This document shows, piece by piece, positions 611 through 6,841 of a DNA stretch of 8,676 nucleotides. Each line of letters opens with the position of its first letter. The stretch's first letter is position 1. Source of the DNA: Candidatus Delongbacteria bacterium (lineage in GTDB: Bacteria; UBA4055); the NCBI GenBank assembly GCA_016937995.1, contig JAFGVM010000042.1, forward strand, positions 1 to 8,676, written 5' to 3'. The position numbers and the translations under genes are program-made. The notes under the pieces are model-generated. The model was not told where the DNA came from. It searched no databases and saw only the letters and a list, made by a program, of their open reading frames with translations.

Positions 611-720
611 AAAAGGGGACGGTTTAAAACCGTCCCCTACATTTTATTTTTTCTACGCAGAGTGAAGGCGTGAAAGCCTACCCCTACGGAAACCCTCATC
701 TTTTCTCTGTGCCCTCTGTG
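611..720 (-). repeat. composite REP-like repeat unit 1 (type A + type B palindromes)
   Basis: The type A hairpin at 615-637 is a perfect 11-bp stem around one base (GGGGACGGTTT/AAACCGTCCCC) and ends in CTAC (637-640). After an AT-rich spacer ending TACGCAGAG (654-662) comes a decayed type B palindrome at about 664-683 (AGGC/GCCT core), also followed by CTAC (684-687). The tail AAACCCTCAT...TTTTCTCTGT (690-710) and a CTCTGTG direct repeat (704-719) follow. Positions 615-710 align with 3009-3104 without net gaps. Read on the minus strand, each palindrome starts with GTAG, the layout of REP elements. The stretch between this unit and the next gene also holds the AGACGCAA palindrome, a heptamer-like tract and a possible promoter, and no gene. 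Confidence 0.8.
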
Positions 721-748
721 GTTAATATCTTTTTTCTTTTGCGGTATT

Positions 749-772
749 AGACGCAAAGTGTTGCGTCTCTAC
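749..772 (-). repeat. REP-like palindrome, type C (AGACGCAA)
   Basis: AGACGCAA (749-756), a four-base loop AGTG, and TTGCGTCT (761-768) form a perfect 8-bp stem followed directly by CTAC (769-772). On the minus strand this is GTAG plus hairpin, the same layout and orientation as the A and B types but with an unrelated stem sequence. Confidence 0.65.
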
Positions 773-785
773 GGAATCCTTGGAA

Positions 786-813
786 ATTGGGTATTCCGTG
801 TTGGATATTCGAT
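786..813. repeat. imperfect heptamer tandem tract
   Basis: Four consecutive 7-base blocks are related: ATTGGGT, ATTCCGT, GTTGGAT, ATTCGAT. The similarity is loose, but period-7 tracts recur elsewhere in the window (2106-2126, 6847-6867), which makes this one more credible. Confidence 0.3.
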
Positions 814-823
814 TTTTATTTTC

Positions 824-852
824 TTGACAAAACAACTTCATATAACTAATTT
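824..852 (+). promoter_or_regulatory. possible promoter of the plus-strand secreted-protein gene
   Basis: A perfect TTGACA lies at 824-829 and a weak -10 candidate TAATTT at 847-852, with a 17-base spacer. A TATAAT at 861-866 is too far from this -35 box to pair with it. The position, 52 bases before the ATG at 905, is suitable. The clear TTGACA is the main support; the -10 choice is uncertain. Confidence 0.35.
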
Positions 853-904
853 AATAATGATATAATTTTCATCTGAACAACAATATTTCCCATGGAGGAG
901 CTTT

Positions 905-2386
905 ATGAAACACATTATTTATTTTATTATGATCTCTTTGTCCATTTCTTTTTCTCAGGGCATGGAATGGAGTAATACGATATCACTTAGTACAGAAGAA
1001 AATGGTGTAAAGCAGATAGATACTGATGAAAATGGTAACATTTATATTGCAGGATATTATGGTGCGCCAAATTATGCTAATTGGGATTATGGAACGTACG
1101 ATTCGCTTATATCTTCTCCAGATATTAGGCTACTTAAATTAAGCTCTAGCGGGGAGTTGATATTTGACCAGGATTACGGAAAATTATTTCATAATTTAGC
1201 AGGGATGACTAACAGTTACCAAGGCTTGAAACTGATCGGCAACACTGACTCTGGTTATAACCCCCTTGACTGGACATACTATTCCATTGCGACAGGGAAT
1301 GAAGAAGGAACTCTCATTGACACTGTTGATTATATTCCATACTATCAATATGGTGATAATTATCGGGCAAATTATGTTTTACCAACAACCGATGGCGGTT
1401 ATATATATTCCTATTCATATTATGGGTTTGAATATTATAATGGTGAAATTGTTAGAATATCTCCTATTGATAGCTTAAATAATTCATTCCCTCGCTATAA
1501 TTACTTTCCCCCCGATTCATTATCAATCTATGGAATAACAGATTTTTTTGCTCGAGATGTTAGCACCACTAATGATAATGGAGTAATTTTAACAGGATAT
1601 TTCGGGGAATATCTGGGATATTATAGAAATTTCATTATAAAATTAGATGATTCGTTTGATGTTGATTGGCAATTATTTTATCCTTACGAATGGAACCATG
1701 AACCTGATGAGACACCATATTCTTTTGGTTCTATTGAGTCAATTAATGATTCAAGTTTCATTACTACTTGCTGGATTGATATTAATCAAAATCAGGATGA
1801 TGATGATGATGAAATATACCTTTTGATTATGAATAATATTGGAGAATATTCATGGTCTTATGGGCCTTTTACTGAATCAATTAAAGTCGAAAAAATGTCT
1901 CATAAAGATTTCATTGTTAGAGGTTTAGATACAAATACGATTTGGAAATTCCGATACAATGGAACTGGGATGGATCTATTATGGTCAGAAGTGTTTCCTG
2001 ATTTGGATATTTTAAAAGTAGTGCCTGAAGGTTTTATTAATGCTACAATAATTAATGATGATCTTTATGTTTTTAAAGTTAAGGATGATACTTCAATTAA
2101 TAATGAACAATTAACAATTAATAATTTTAGGCTCGAACAGAATTATCCGAACCCGTTCAATCCGGTAACAACAATATCTTACTCAATTTCTGAAAAAGGA
2201 TTGGTTAATTTAGTTATTTATAATACCAAAGGTGAAGTTGTATCTGAATTAGTTAATAAAGAGCAAAATATCGGTTATTACAATATTAATTTCGAAGGAA
2301 ATGATCTAAATTCAGGTGTGTATTTTTATCAATTGAAACTAAATAACAAACCTGTTGATACAAAACGGATGCTGTTGATAAAATAG
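905..2386 (+). CDS. T9SS-secreted beta-propeller-like surface protein with type A C-terminal sorting domain
   Basis: The 493-residue protein starts at ATG 905 with a strong ribosome-binding site, GGAGG at 894-898, six bases away. Residues 1-18 are a signal peptide (hydrophobic core IIYFIMISLSISFS), so export is by Sec. The body is rich in Tyr, Asn and Asp and carries repeated blade-like phrases: DENGNIYIAGYYG (41-53), TTDGGYIYSYSYYG (161-174), TNDNGVILTGYFG (222-234), and strands of the form LLKLSSSGEL and IIKLDDSFDVDW. These resemble the DGGYI.(x)G / (I,V)KLDxxGxxxW repeats of secreted beta-propellers. An acidic run DDDDDE (298-303) comes from five GAT codons. Residues 408-493 (FRLEQNYPNPFNP... 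to KRMLLIK) are a typical T9SS type A sorting domain, which predicts passage through the outer membrane and release or surface attachment. The linker 397-407 is encoded partly by a heptamer repeat. It is the only plus-strand gene and stands alone between repeats. The ligand or substrate is unknown. Confidence 0.88.
   Translation: MKHIIYFIMISLSISFSQGMEWSNTISLSTEENGVKQIDTDENGNIYIAGYYGAPNYANWDYGTYDSLISSPDIRLLKLSSSGELIFDQDYGKLFHNLAGMTNSYQGLKLIGNTDSGYNPLDWTYYSIATGNEEGTLIDTVDYIPYYQYGDNYRANYVLPTTDGGYIYSYSYYGFEYYNGEIVRISPIDSLNNSFPRYNYFPPDSLSIYGITDFFARDVSTTNDNGVILTGYFGEYLGYYRNFIIKLDDSFDVDWQLFYPYEWNHEPDETPYSFGSIESINDSSFITTCWIDINQNQDDDDDEIYLLIMNNIGEYSWSYGPFTESIKVEKMSHKDFIVRGLDTNTIWKFRYNGTGMDLLWSEVFPDLDILKVVPEGFINATIINDDLYVFKVKDDTSINNEQLTINNFRLEQNYPNPFNPVTTISYSISEKGLVNLVIYNTKGEVVSELVNKEQNIGYYNINFEGNDLNSGVYFYQLKLNNKPVDTKRMLLIK
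2106..2126 (+). repeat. heptamer tandem repeat (AACAATT) inside the coding region
   Basis: AACAATT (2106-2112), AACAATT (2113-2119) and AATAATT (2120-2126) are three consecutive 7-base units within the preceding gene. They encode part of the linker SINNEQLTINN immediately before the sorting domain at residue 408. The reverse complement, AATTGTT, differs by one base from a rotation of the CAATTGT heptamer found at 6854-6867. Confidence 0.6.
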
Positions 2387-2415
2387 ATACTGAAATAAAT
2401 TCAGGATGTCATATT

Positions 2416-2456
2416 AAAAAAGGGGACGATAAGAAATCGTCCCCTACGTTTTTATT
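2416..2456. terminator. probable bidirectional rho-independent terminator made by the type A hairpin
   Basis: The 9-bp GC-rich stem (2422-2444) has six A on its left (2416-2421), which is a U-run for minus-strand transcripts coming from the AlbA_2 gene. On its right, after TACG, is TTTTTATTT (2449-2457), a U-rich tail for plus-strand transcripts ending the gene that stops at 2386. The position between two converging genes fits a shared terminator. Confidence 0.55.
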
Positions 2457-2493
2457 TAATGCGTTCAGGGAAGGCGTGGAAGCCTTCCCCTAC
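2416..2493 (-). repeat. composite REP-like repeat unit 2 (type A + type B palindromes)
   Basis: Type A: GGGGACGAT (2422-2430), loop AAGAA, ATCGTCCCC (2436-2444), then TAC, giving CTAC at 2444-2447. Type B: GGGAAGGC (2468-2475), six-base loop, GCCTTCCC (2482-2489), with CTAC at 2490-2493. The A-to-B spacing matches unit 1 within one base. Compared with unit 1, stem pair 8-9 changes from GG/CC to GA/TC, a compensated substitution that keeps the hairpin. Confidence 0.82.
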
Positions 2494-2539
2494 GAAAACC
2501 CATTATAATTTTTATGATTAAATTTTACCAATCAGAGCT

Positions 2540-2989
2540 TCAAGTACGATTTGCACGCAATTCTTCGATCATTTTTGAAGGCATAGGTTCAGAAGCACTT
2601 CCTTTCCGAATAAAACATCCCTTTTCTGTCATACCTGATTTTTTTATGAAGTACGGTTTCTCAGGTCCACCGGTTAAATCTATCTTGATCACAACTTTAT
2701 CTTTTCGATTTTCAAATAAGACATCATATAAATCTAAAGCCGATGGAAGAATTCTGTTCTTTATTCTATCATTGATCTGAAGCTTAAGTCTATCTGCTTC
2801 TTTTATTCCGGTAACAGAACCATTATTCTCGATACCAATATAAATAGTACCTCCTTCACGGTAGTTTAAGAACGCAACAACCTCTTTTTCAAATGTTGTT
2901 GACAGCTCTCTTTTATATTGGACCCTATTTGATTTCATTGATTTTCTATTCCCCATTGGTTTTATACAATGTAACACTTTTATGTTCAT
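2540..2989 (-). CDS. AlbA_2 (Schlafen-like) domain protein, probably the truncated N-terminus of a COG2865-type putative regulator/helicase-related protein
   Basis: The 149-residue frame contains a complete AlbA_2 domain (Pfam PF04326, formerly AAA_4): NRVQYKREL (21-29), EKEVVAFLNYREGGTIYIGI (34-53), and EKPYFIKKSGMTEKGCFIRK (110-129) followed by GSASEPM (130-136). Family members of this type are usually several hundred residues long and continue after ...EPMPxxMIxELxAxRT with RNS... and a C-terminal region. Here TGA follows the RT directly, so about two thirds is missing. No ribosome-binding site precedes ATG 2989. The internal ATG at 2936-2938 (MKSNRVQYKREL) matches how relatives start and has GGGGA about 11 bases upstream, so the true start may be 2938. 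The gene is bracketed by composite repeat units 2 and 3. It is either a decaying remnant or a domain-only protein. AlbA_2 domains are associated with nucleic-acid binding; no specific role can be assigned here. Confidence 0.72.
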   Translation of the reverse strand: MNIKVLHCIKPMGNRKSMKSNRVQYKRELSTTFEKEVVAFLNYREGGTIYIGIENNGSVTGIKEADRLKLQINDRIKNRILPSALDLYDVLFENRKDKVVIKIDLTGGPEKPYFIKKSGMTEKGCFIRKGSASEPMPSKMIEELRANRT

Positions 2990-2999
2990 TTTACTAAAT

Positions 3000-3115
3000 A
3001 AAAAAAATGGGACGAATAAAAATCGTCCCCTTACATTTCATTTTTCTTACGCAGAGGGAAGGCATGGGAACCTTCCCCTACAGAAACCCTCATATTTTCT
3101 CTGTATTATCTTTGA
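3000..3115 (-). repeat. composite REP-like repeat unit 3 (type A + type B palindromes) with terminator-like U-run
   Basis: Type A: GGGACGA (3009-3015), seven-base loop, TCGTCCC (3023-3029), with CCCCTTAC in place of CCCCTAC (one changed base). Type B: GGGAAGG (3056-3062), loop of eight, CCTTCCC (3071-3077), with CTAC at 3078-3081. The tail AAACCCTCAT...TTTTCTCTGT (3084-3104) matches unit 1. To the left of the type A stem is an A-rich run (3000-3007), so minus-strand transcripts of the upstream BNR-repeat gene would meet a hairpin plus U-run here. Confidence 0.8.
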
Positions 3116-3152
3116 AAAAATCTTTTAATCTTTGGTTCATCGTAACTCTTGC

Positions 3153-3186
3153 GAACTCATAGTTTTTAGTTCATATCTTATAGTTG
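3153..3186. repeat. imperfect period-7 tract downstream of the BNR-repeat gene
   Basis: On the minus strand the stretch reads as loosely repeated heptamers: AACTATA, AGATATG, AACTAAA, AACTATG, AGTTC. It lies directly after the stop codon at 3192-3194. The units are diverged, so the call is tentative. Confidence 0.35.
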
Positions 3187-3191
3187 TTTTT

Positions 3192-5798
3192 CTATCGCAG
3201 ATAATTCATCTTATGGGTCTGAACTTGATTTCCCGCTACAACTCTGCAAATATACAATCCTGATGCAATATTATATTTCCCTGCATCGAAACTTATCTTG
3301 TTATTCCCTTTCCTTAGCATTCCATCAAATATTGTCCCGATCTCTCTGCCAGCAGCATTATAGATTTTCACAATGCCATTCTTTTGCTCACTCATAGAAA
3401 TATTTATAACAGTCTCATTGTTAAATGGATTCGGATAGTTGCTCAAGGTCATTTCACTTATGATATTACTTTCAGGATTTTCTATACTACTGAAATCATC
3501 CAGAGATGTTTTATAAGCCGATCTGCCATAGGTCGCTGCAAAAACTAAATTATCCTGATAATGGATCTTAATTTTGTAAACAGGGGAGTTCGGAATACCT
3601 AAGCCACCTGCTTTCCAGCTACCACCGGCATCATTGGTATAATATAGACCAATATCTGTACCTACAAAGATCATATTCGGATCATTCTTATTGATCTCTA
3701 TCGTATTGATCGGTAAAAGTGGAAGATTTCCGGTAACATCAGTCCAGCTAACACCATAATCTTCTGTTTTATAGACATACGCCAGTTCTGAATCCCATCT
3801 CAGGCCGGAGTAAGAAACAAATGCTCTTCCCGGATCATCCCAGTCAACTACTATTCCTGTTACCCATCTGTTTGGCAGACTGGTAGAAATTTTCGTCCAG
3901 TCAGTACCTCCATTCTGAGTAACCCATACATTTGAATGAGATGTTCCTACATATATGACATTGGCATTGGCCGGAGCAGGTGCAATAGCGTATATATTTC
4001 CTACACCATCTGTCAGGTCAGGACTTATCTTGTTCCATGTGAACGAATAATCTGCATCCATTGCATCACCTGATTTATACAAATACTGTGAACCGCAAAA
4101 GATCGCTCTGGGATTCATTGGGTGGAATATCATTGGTGTATTCCAGTCAAACCTGTCATCTCCGATAAGGCCATCGGTAATATTCCAAAAGTAATTTCCG
4201 TCATCAATACTTTTACACATCCACCCCCATTGTGCTTCTGCATAAATAACTGAAGGATTCCCCGGATTAATTAAAGCCCTGAAACCATCACCACCCAGAA
4301 CATGCTCCCAGTCATCCAGATTGCCTGTTCTGGTAAAGTTCGTACCGTTATCCTGAGCTCCACCGATCATTCGGTTTGAATTATTATCATCAACATCAAA
4401 GCCGTAAAATTGAGTGATCGGCAGCTTAATATCTGTAAAAGTTGCACCATTGTCTGTACTTGTTATCAAACCACCATCATTCCCGTTAATGAAGAAATTC
4501 TCTGTAGGACTTATCGCTATTGCATGATGATCGACGTGTGGACCTGTTCCCGCATAATATTCATCATAACCTCCAAGAAGTTGCCAAGTAGTTCCTCCAT
4601 CAGAAGTCATATGATATGAAACTCCAAGTAAGAAAGCTACATCATCATCCTTTGGATCAACCTCTATTTTTGAGAAATACCATCCGAAATTACTGTAGCT
4701 GTTAGACAGGGATGAATCATTTGTTCGTGTCCATGTAGCTCCTCCGTCAACAGTTTTCCAGACACCTCCGAACTCACTGCCGGTTGAAGCATAATAATTT
4801 GCCATAGAAGCATACAGAATATTTGAATTTTGCTGACTGATAGCTAGACCAATCCTACCTACAAAATCTCCTTCAGGAAAACCGTTCGTAAGTTTTTCCC
4901 AGTCTGTACCACTATTAACAGACTTATATATCCCAGAAGTTACTCCACCTGAAATTCTATCATTCAACGGTCTATTCCTTTCCCACATGGATGCATAAAT
5001 AATATCTGAGTTATTTGGATCAATCACAAGATCATTTGCAGCAGTAATGTCAGAGATATAGAGTATTTTATCCCAGGAAGCTCCACCGTCTATGGACTTA
5101 TAAACTCCTCTTTCTTCATTGGCTGAATATACTTTACCCGTAGCACAGGCATAAACAATATTTGAATTATTCGGATTGACCCTCACTCTTGATATATAAT
5201 AACTGCTGTCAAGACCTATATGCTCCCAGGTTACACCACCGTCTATGGTTTTGTACATACCGTCACCATAAAAACTAAAACTACTGGCAGATGCTTCTCC
5301 GGTACCGACATAAACTATATTTGAATTATTTGGATCGATCGCCAGAGCTCCGATAGTTAAAATCGGCTGATCGTCAAAGACAGGAGTCCAGTTTAAACCT
5401 TTATCTACAGTTTTATAGACACCACCTGAAGCTGTTGCTGCCCAGATAATATCTTCATTGTTTGGATCGATCTCAATATCTGAAAATCTTCCACCAACAT
5501 TCATTGGTCCGGCAAGCTCCCACTGCTTTGGATTCTTTTCTTTTAAAAGTTCCTGCTTAAGTTGATTTGCCTGCTCAAGTCCTCTCTTGTAAGCCCTGAT
5601 ATCAATATCTTTTTCAGGATATGCTCTCATTTCCCAGTAATTTGCATTGGGATTAGCTTTTGGACCACCTTGTCTGTGTTTTGCAGTTTTCTTAAAAACT
5701 GCCCTATCCGGTATTTTTGATAAATTATTTGTGTAAAAGATCAGGAGCATTGCAGTTGACAGAAAAATAATGGTTAGGAACAACATTTTCTTTTTCAT
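3192..5798 (-). CDS. large secreted BNR/Asp-box (sortilin-like) beta-propeller protein with T9SS sorting domain
   Basis: The 868-residue protein starts at ATG 5798 with a clear AAGGAGA site (5806-5812) eight bases upstream. Residues 1-24 are a hydrophobic export signal (MLFLTIIFLSTAMLLIFY). The body carries about eleven Asp-box-like motifs (S/TxDxGxxW): YKTVDKGLNW (128-137), YKTIDGGVTW (182-191), YKSIDGGASW (233-242), YKSVNSGTDW (291-300), WKTVDGGATW (347-356), MTSDGGTTW (397-405), TSTDNGATF (446-454), CKSIDDGNYF (528-537), VTQNGGTDW (626-634), YKTEDYGVSW (676-685) and YTNDAGGSW (720-728), often preceded by DPNNSNIIYA-type strands. GTGPHVDHHAIAISP (417-431) then NGNDGGL (438-444) is a conserved insertion of the sortilin/VPS10-like, GH74-like secreted propellers. 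This predicts two seven-bladed propellers' worth of repeats. Residues about 784-868 (LSNYPNPFNNETVINI... KMNYLR) are a T9SS type A domain. It is often annotated glycosyl hydrolase, but catalytic Asp residues cannot be assigned, so enzymatic activity is unproven. Confidence 0.9.
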   Translation of the reverse strand: MKKKMLFLTIIFLSTAMLLIFYTNNLSKIPDRAVFKKTAKHRQGGPKANPNANYWEMRAYPEKDIDIRAYKRGLEQANQLKQELLKEKNPKQWELAGPMNVGGRFSDIEIDPNNEDIIWAATASGGVYKTVDKGLNWTPVFDDQPILTIGALAIDPNNSNIVYVGTGEASASSFSFYGDGMYKTIDGGVTWEHIGLDSSYYISRVRVNPNNSNIVYACATGKVYSANEERGVYKSIDGGASWDKILYISDITAANDLVIDPNNSDIIYASMWERNRPLNDRISGGVTSGIYKSVNSGTDWEKLTNGFPEGDFVGRIGLAISQQNSNILYASMANYYASTGSEFGGVWKTVDGGATWTRTNDSSLSNSYSNFGWYFSKIEVDPKDDDVAFLLGVSYHMTSDGGTTWQLLGGYDEYYAGTGPHVDHHAIAISPTENFFINGNDGGLITSTDNGATFTDIKLPITQFYGFDVDDNNSNRMIGGAQDNGTNFTRTGNLDDWEHVLGGDGFRALINPGNPSVIYAEAQWGWMCKSIDDGNYFWNITDGLIGDDRFDWNTPMIFHPMNPRAIFCGSQYLYKSGDAMDADYSFTWNKISPDLTDGVGNIYAIAPAPANANVIYVGTSHSNVWVTQNGGTDWTKISTSLPNRWVTGIVVDWDDPGRAFVSYSGLRWDSELAYVYKTEDYGVSWTDVTGNLPLLPINTIEINKNDPNMIFVGTDIGLYYTNDAGGSWKAGGLGIPNSPVYKIKIHYQDNLVFAATYGRSAYKTSLDDFSSIENPESNIISEMTLSNYPNPFNNETVINISMSEQKNGIVKIYNAAGREIGTIFDGMLRKGNNKISFDAGKYNIASGLYICRVVAGNQVQTHKMNYLR

Positions 5799-5841
5799 GA
5801 TTATATCTCCTTAAAATATTTTTGTTTATCCTTTTAAGAGA

Positions 5842-5867
5842 GGGGACGGTAAGAAACCGTCCCCTAC
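5842..5867 (-). repeat. REP-like palindrome, type A, solitary copy
   Basis: GGGGACGGT (5842-5850), loop AAGAA, ACCGTCCCC (5856-5864), then TAC, giving CTAC at 5864-5867. It lies between prmA and the BNR-repeat gene. Unlike the other type A copies it has no A-run on its left (GAGA instead), so it is a weaker terminator for minus-strand transcripts. The loop is identical to that of unit 2, while the stem carries GG/CC as in unit 1. Confidence 0.8.
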
Positions 5868-5894
5868 GGTTTACATTGGAAATTGCGAAATAGA

Positions 5895-6758
5895 TCAGAT
5901 CTTGATCAATTTCATACAGCACCATTCACCCATTTCAAAATACCCGTCCGACTTTAATCCTCCGATTTCCTGGATCCTTTTATACATTTTCTCATTGTCA
6001 TCTATAAGAATACCTGAAAGAAGAATGATCCCACCGGGTTTTACGATCTTTTTGAAATTAGGCAGTAATTCTTCAAGAACTTTCCTGTTTATATTTGCCA
6101 GAACGACATCATACTCATCTTTAACTGCATAGTCTTTTTCATTTGTGAATTTTACGATGATCTTATCAAAAACTCCGTTCAATTCAGCATTTTCTCTGCA
6201 GTTATCATAACTTTCTTCATCTATATCCACCGCAGTAACTATCTCAGCTCCGTTTTTCACCGACCCAATTGATAAAATACCTGACCCGGAACCTGCATCA
6301 AAAACTTTCTTCCCTTTGAGTTCAAGCTTACTTATCTGCTCAAGCATTAATTTCGTAGTTTCATGAGTCCCTGTCCCGAAAGCCATTTTCGGCTCAATAA
6401 ATATCTTTATCTTATCAGATTCAACAGTCTGCCATGAAGGAACGACAATGAATTTTCCTGCATCAATAGGCTTATAGCTCTTCTTCCATTCTTCTCTCCA
6501 GTCCATTTTAGGTATATTTTCAATTTTTATCTCTGACATACCTTCCATGTCCTTGTCTCTGAAAAACACTTTAAGTTTCCCGATCACTGTTTCAGGGTTA
6601 TTATCTTTTTCAAAGAATAATCTTAAACCTGTTGTATCTTCAAAGGTCGTCTCGTCAAGGTCTTCTATACCCTGACATCCTATTGAAAATGCAAATTCAG
6701 TAATAACATCTTTTAAAATTTCATCTGAAATATTTATATCGATTGAATACCATTCCAT
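5895..6758 (-). CDS. prmA: ribosomal protein L11 methyltransferase PrmA
   Basis: The 287-residue protein is close to the usual PrmA length. PrmA is a cytoplasmic SAM-dependent enzyme that methylates the N-terminal amine and lysine side chains of ribosomal protein L11. Visible signatures, in order: the N-terminal substrate-recognition domain (1-80); DWREEWKKSYKP (86-97), the linker motif typical of PrmA; PKMAFGTGTHETT (123-135); the SAM-binding motif I DAGSGSGILSI (154-164, usually D.GTGSGILSI); acidic motif VDID (177-180); and LANIN (220-224), the NxxxxxL-type motif IV region. Start ATG 6758 has AAGGA (minus strand, 6767-6771) eight bases upstream. It follows the oxidoreductase gene by 112 bp filled with repeats and precedes the BNR gene by 96 bp, so operon membership is unclear. 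No missing catalytic residue is seen. Confidence 0.95.
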   Translation of the reverse strand: MEWYSIDINISDEILKDVITEFAFSIGCQGIEDLDETTFEDTTGLRLFFEKDNNPETVIGKLKVFFRDKDMEGMSEIKIENIPKMDWREEWKKSYKPIDAGKFIVVPSWQTVESDKIKIFIEPKMAFGTGTHETTKLMLEQISKLELKGKKVFDAGSGSGILSIGSVKNGAEIVTAVDIDEESYDNCRENAELNGVFDKIIVKFTNEKDYAVKDEYDVVLANINRKVLEELLPNFKKIVKPGGIILLSGILIDDNEKMYKRIQEIGGLKSDGYFEMGEWCCMKLIKI

Positions 6759-6778
6759 TTGTGTTTTCCTTATCCGTC

Positions 6779-6799
6779 ATCCTGAATTTATTTCAGGAT
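6779..6799. repeat. intergenic palindrome ATCCTGAA-N5-TTCAGGAT
   Basis: ATCCTGAA (6779-6786) and TTCAGGAT (6792-6799) form a perfect 8-bp stem around five bases. I recognise this as a common dispersed intergenic palindrome in many bacterial genomes (its translation gives the recurrent phantom peptide VILNLFQDL). It lacks the CTAC tag of the types A-C and lies 21 bases upstream of the prmA start. Confidence 0.6.
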
Positions 6800-6808
6800 C
6801 TTGTTTTA

Positions 6809-6841
6809 AAAATGGGGGGACGACAAGAAATCGTCCCCTAC
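6809..6841 (-). repeat. REP-like palindrome, type A, with minus-strand U-run (possible terminator)
   Basis: GGGGACGA (6816-6823), seven-base loop CAAGAAA, TCGTCCCC (6831-6838), with CTAC at 6838-6841. On the left is AAAAAT preceded by TTTT, so a transcript of the oxidoreductase gene running leftward meets an 8-bp GC-rich stem and then UUUUU. It may end or attenuate transcription before prmA. Confidence 0.75.

Follow-up and report, generated by a model that had tools for sequence, protein, structure and literature searches.

A contig from a Candidatus Delongbacteria genome carries nine short palindromes with a GTAG end, which raises the question of whether they are bacterial REP sequences and to which transposases they belong. 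The window, that is the whole stretch of DNA analysed, is contig C86 in full (8,676 bp) of a MAG of 2,745,438 bp in 99 contigs. We consider it very probable that these palindromes are GTAG-tagged REPs of the TnpA_REP subclass 2.4 (RAYT group 4) type, whose copies a RAYT (Y1 HUH) would seed, each lineage having its own stem. The observations behind this reading are the palindromes themselves, their tag, an enrichment restricted to the genus, the same palindromes within RAYT open reading frames and presence/absence differences between sister species. The REP class is already known and the host phylum is little studied, hence this is a new example there; a REP/RAYT system was in this way confirmed in a candidate phylum from one raw contig. 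Apart from an orientation bias, the biology was already known.

The palindromes of the window

An earlier note on this DNA had listed nine palindromes of three stem types, and all of them were recovered, the first type B copy, placed there at about 664, spanning positions 662-687. Type A copies are located at 615-640 (plus strand GGGGACGGTTTAAAACCGTCCCCTAC; the same type as the palindromes within RAYT open reading frames), 2422-2447 (GGGGACGATAAGAAATCGTCCCCTAC), 3009-3034, 5842-5867 (GGGGACGGTAAGAAACCGTCCCCTAC) and 6816-6841, type B copies at 662-687 (GTGAAGGCGTGAAAGCCTACCCCTAC; repeat family D4, with a decayed stem), 2468-2493 (GGGAAGGCGTGGAAGCCTTCCCCTAC) and 3056-3081 (GGGAAGGCATGGGAACCTTCCCCTAC), and the type C copy at 749-772 (AGACGCAAAGTGTTGCGTCTCTAC). 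The GTAG end lies on the minus strand in all nine. CTAC follows directly after eight of them, as had been described; the deviating copy at 3009 ends in CCCCTTAC, as if a T had been inserted and the first G lost. The claim that five of the six intergenic gaps contain palindromes was also borne out, with at least one in each. A scan for hairpins followed by CTAC, with a score threshold of at least 9.5 under which two decayed copies fall, gave 7 sites in the window; among 100 dinucleotide shuffles the average was 0.1 and no shuffle exceeded 1. A search of the window in Rfam gave no match.

The GTAG super-family (Di Nocera et al. 2013, PMC3733652) comprises palindromes of 20-40 nt with GTAG at one end, has several families per genome and lies mainly between unidirectional and convergent genes. 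Eight of the nine window copies are palindromes of 20-40 nt with an unpaired GTAG at one end and, with families compared by description only, palindrome size, GTAG end, several families per genome and placement in gene gaps are all alike. The window copies occur singly or as same-direction pairs and not as the inverted pairs of a REPIN.

Types A and B recur in the window as a linked head-to-tail unit (three occurrences, start spacing 46-49 bp), and the segment 606-739 matches 3000-3133 at 71% over 134 nt. Local duplication therefore contributes, and the nine palindromes represent fewer than nine independent events; nine are indeed present, but those of the A-B unit form a locally repeated composite. 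The remaining type B copies of the genome did not show this A-B spacing. At about 2389-2405 and 6780-6800 of the window, close to REPs, there is a second dispersed repeat (CTGAAATAAATTCAG within GTCATCCTGAATTTATTTCAGGATC), which has nine sites in a wider genome sample (about 742 kb, taken by stretches).

Copies across the genome and the genus

The search for further copies that the earlier note had proposed was carried out with a pattern for each stem type. In this genome the type A core GTCCCCTAC gave 39 matches and its reversed control 12; in the other two genus members the corresponding counts were 53 against 5 and 22 against 6. This enrichment was limited to the three genus members among the 15 genomes searched, and the searched genomes outside the genus showed none. 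In this genome, type B (CCTTCCCCTAC) gave 15 matches against 1 for the reversed control, and type C (GCGTCTCTAC), a short pattern, 8 against 5. The elements are repeated, mostly extragenic and present above chance, type C being weak by simple count. Their copy number is in the tens, which is low for a REP family and counts against the assignment.

Positions 5, 6 and 8 of the type A stem covary, the right arms matching the left-arm variants GGGGACGA, GGGGACGG, GGGGAGGG and GGGGTCGA. As for type C, nearly all of its matches are hairpins with a complementary left arm, and their inner stems are altered yet paired (GCAA/TTGC, GCAT/ATGC, GCAG/CTGC, GCGA/TCGC and GCCC/GGGC). Types A and B have three G-C pairs at the stem foot; type C is without such a foot and has AGACG or GAGACG there.

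As for the tag, in 400 kb sampled from this genome 7.6 of every 1000 CTAC tetramers lay at the base of a strong hairpin, against 0-1.5 per 1000 for the other permutations of these bases tested, so that the conserved GTAG is found at other copies too. GTAG is the sole element common to the different stem types. The earlier statement that the stem types share this tag holds for the type C copy of the window, but C-like members in the wider genome sample mostly end in TTAC and not CTAC. A further dispersed family, GTCATTGCGA...GTGGCAATCT, has 20 and 13 sites in the 742-kb sample (reversed controls 0) and sometimes adjoins type A REPs.

RAYT genes and their stems

TnpA_REP subclass 2.4 of Quentin et al. 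(2018, PMC6006769) corresponds to RAYT group 4. Its transposases, scattered across phyla, have HuH (NH[IFV]H), WQ and YIxNNP motifs, its REPs are canonical and long with a stem ending in three G-C pairs and the tag GT[AG]G, and its unique feature is a REP inserted in frame into the transposase coding sequence, between the HuH motif and the Y (PMC6006769).

A PF01797 search of this genome found one IS200-like gene and missed the divergent RAYTs. With a profile made of divergent RAYTs, mainly from sister species and also from other phyla, five genes or remnants were found in this genome, on contigs C41, C80, C56, C81 and C30. The profile matches PDB 4er8, TnpA_REP; matches of the RAYTs to NF047646 are partial and below the curated cut-off. 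The RAYT of C41, with an open frame of 205 aa, is the sole full-length one found in this genome, and it has a different stem with a TGC-type end and NV in place of the signature NP. The C81 remnant adjoins half a GTAGGGGAGGGTT palindrome. The C80 fragment carries the type A palindrome GGGGACGAATGGGAATCGTCCCCTAC in frame within its open reading frame; it encodes RRGDEWESSPTV across the palindrome and then a C-terminus with WQ and YIRDNP. The contig ends 34 bp past this palindrome, with the HUH half unseen.

We found also, in the RAYT L231 of the sister genome G001 (contig C193), two type A palindromes in inverted orientation between MPNHIHC and WQRSF...YICDNP. One of them (L231:1805-1830) is identical to the window copy at 2422-2447 and the other (L231:1697-1722) to that at 5842-5867. 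The motifs of L231 are NHIH, WQ and YICDNP, and those of another genus RAYT, L081, are NHLH, WQ and YIRNNP, both sets being a close match to the subclass 2.4 signature. RAYTs of the same clade are present in this genome (G000), G001, G002 and G007, and none was found in the eight other family genomes searched. One or more CTAC hairpins are present within the open reading frame in 65 of the 80 RAYT relatives, which come from many phyla, a proportion that may be inflated because these relatives were found and ranked by queries which themselves contain such palindromes. The density of CTAC hairpins inside the open reading frame of the relatives was 2.9 per kb compared to 0.26 per kb at a distance from the gene, and those in the open reading frame usually form an inverted pair whose start lies about 240 nt inside the match. 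The C80 fragment, L231 and the wider relatives all show a REP placed in frame between HuH and Y. The REP/RAYT reading put forward in the earlier note is supported, since additional copies exist, the GTAG is conserved and there are RAYT genes with a matching stem, which lies within the gene both in the same genome (C80) and in the genus (L231).

Like subclass 2.4 REPtrons, the elements described here have a three-G-C foot, a GTAG tag, WQ and YIxNNP-type motifs and in-frame REPs between HuH and Y. They differ in that their host genus belongs to Candidatus Delongbacteria, that one genome harbours several lineages, some decayed, each with a stem of its own, and that the window copies are single or in the same direction, whereas inverted pairs occur inside the RAYT genes. 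The E. coli REP/TnpA_REP system (subclass 2.2; PDB 4er8) is similar in having GTAG plus a hairpin and a Y1 HUH protein matched by our RAYT profile, but its stem is bulged, whereas the stems here are mostly regular.

For type A the tie to a RAYT is one of sequence identity: the copies inside the RAYT gene link the REP family to its transposase letter for letter. Type B appears tied to L081 by similarity of stem and loop only. No RAYT with a matching stem was found for type C among the RAYT genes searched. A type C-like palindrome, AGACGTTGCAGTGCAACGTCTTTAC, is located at L091:2855-2879 (G002:C9); the IS200-like gene that lies some 130 nt away is a possible partner for type C. Another IS200-like gene, in L001 (G000:C56), has inverted flanking palindromes, GTAGGTCGTCCCTAAGGGACTTT and TTAGGTCGTCCCGAGGGGACTTT, at 1385-1410 and 1868-1895 and a Y motif, YIKNQKSH, like that of subclass 1.2 (PMC6006769); no further copies of these two palindromes were present in the 742-kb sample.

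The different stems could be served by several RAYT lineages or, as the earlier note also proposed, by one RAYT reading mainly the GTAG tag and mobilising all stem types. The latter draws on GTAG being the one element common to all of them; it is very unlikely given that the RAYT genes of the genus carry different stems, namely GGGGACG (L231), GGACAGGC and GGTCGGAC (L081), GGAACGC (L082), GGGCGTAT (L226), GGGCGTTAT (L229) and GGGCGAAT (L095). Because the RAYTs examined in the genus differ in this way, several lineages fit the different stems, and of the two proposals this is the one that stood. Of the stems carried by other genus RAYTs, several have free copies in this genome as well: GGAACGCATTCCTGCGTTCCCTAC, present beside the RAYT in L082, is found at C56, C66 and C81, and the GTAGGGGAGGGTT stem was seen as free copies in the 742-kb sample.

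By analogy with work on other RAYTs (PMC8266576), from which we infer binding, cutting and mobilisation, a RAYT of this type, as a Y1 HUH nuclease, would recognise GTAG and its own hairpin as single-stranded DNA, and would cleave and rejoin the REP, seeding copies into intergenic DNA. Each RAYT lineage would read its own stem, so that several lineages would give several stem families per genome.

Turnover and orientation of the copies

The gap between prmA and an oxidoreductase gene contains a type A copy here (6816-6841) and none in G002. In the G001 gap matching 2990-3191, a type B copy related to that at 3056-3081 is present and the type A copy at 3009-3034 is absent. These differences between sister species fit movement, and loss is also possible. 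The window genes at 905-2386, missing from the matching place in G001, and at 3192-5798, likewise missing in G002, are each bracketed by same-direction REP copies, which suggests gain or loss via recombination between REPs.

Such an arrangement, with two genes between same-direction copies that are each absent at the corresponding site of a sister genome, would also be expected if ordinary duplication and recombination, with no RAYT, had produced the copies, as would the triple A-B unit and the match of 606-739 to 3000-3133. Against this, copies on many contigs have unrelated flanks and share only the 26-nt element or little more, and the same sequences are present in RAYT genes, which makes duplication on its own extremely improbable. 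Local duplication probably adds to spread by RAYTs and does not replace it.

In gaps between codirectional genes, taken as long open reading frames and not as curated annotation, GTAG came first on the sense strand in 33 copies and the opposite was seen in 6 (p = 1.4e-5). On contig C56, neighbouring copies flip with the local gene direction. The single orientation stressed in the earlier note is real for the window, but it is not a property of the array: it tracks the direction of the neighbouring genes, and it is mostly explained by the window genes lying mostly on the minus strand. Local gene direction fitted the orientation in 23 of 29 cases and regional strand with GC skew in 20 of 29; only 7 cases separate local gene direction from replication strand, of which 5 follow the local gene.

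A terminator-like tail followed the stem on the GTAG strand in 26 of 62 copies, and a comparison of the two strands is unfair in this respect, since the CTAC side scores lower by construction owing to the TAC of the tag. Where 5.0 terminator-like sites were expected in the window, 13 were counted, and seven of these lie on type A palindromes. These tails and the terminator scan support, rather than show, a predicted terminator role for the REPs. That selection has simply kept the palindromes as intrinsic terminators or as stabilisers of mRNA 3' ends, and that CTAC stands beside them by chance through base composition, would agree with these same counts and with their intergenic, mostly sense placement. 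We regard it as highly improbable, since terminators need neither a shared GTAG tag nor genus-wide stem families, and leave the identical in-frame palindromes inside RAYT genes unexplained. Terminator activity could be a secondary use, and is partly compatible with an origin as REPs.

For REPs seeded by RAYTs, copies with GTAG on the sense strand may be favoured or kept because the upstream gene would then have at its 3' end a hairpin with a T-rich tail directly behind it; alternatively, the bias may come from the manner in which the target strand is exposed. We propose, tentatively and as a rather doubtful possibility, that the orientation of group 4 REPs in this genus would be set by local transcription, the REPs being either portable terminators whose wrong-way copies are lost or the products of a RAYT that captures a strand exposed by transcription and not by replication. 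A bias with gene direction was not found reported in the REP/RAYT literature cited here; it is measurable and can be tested in any REP-rich genome.
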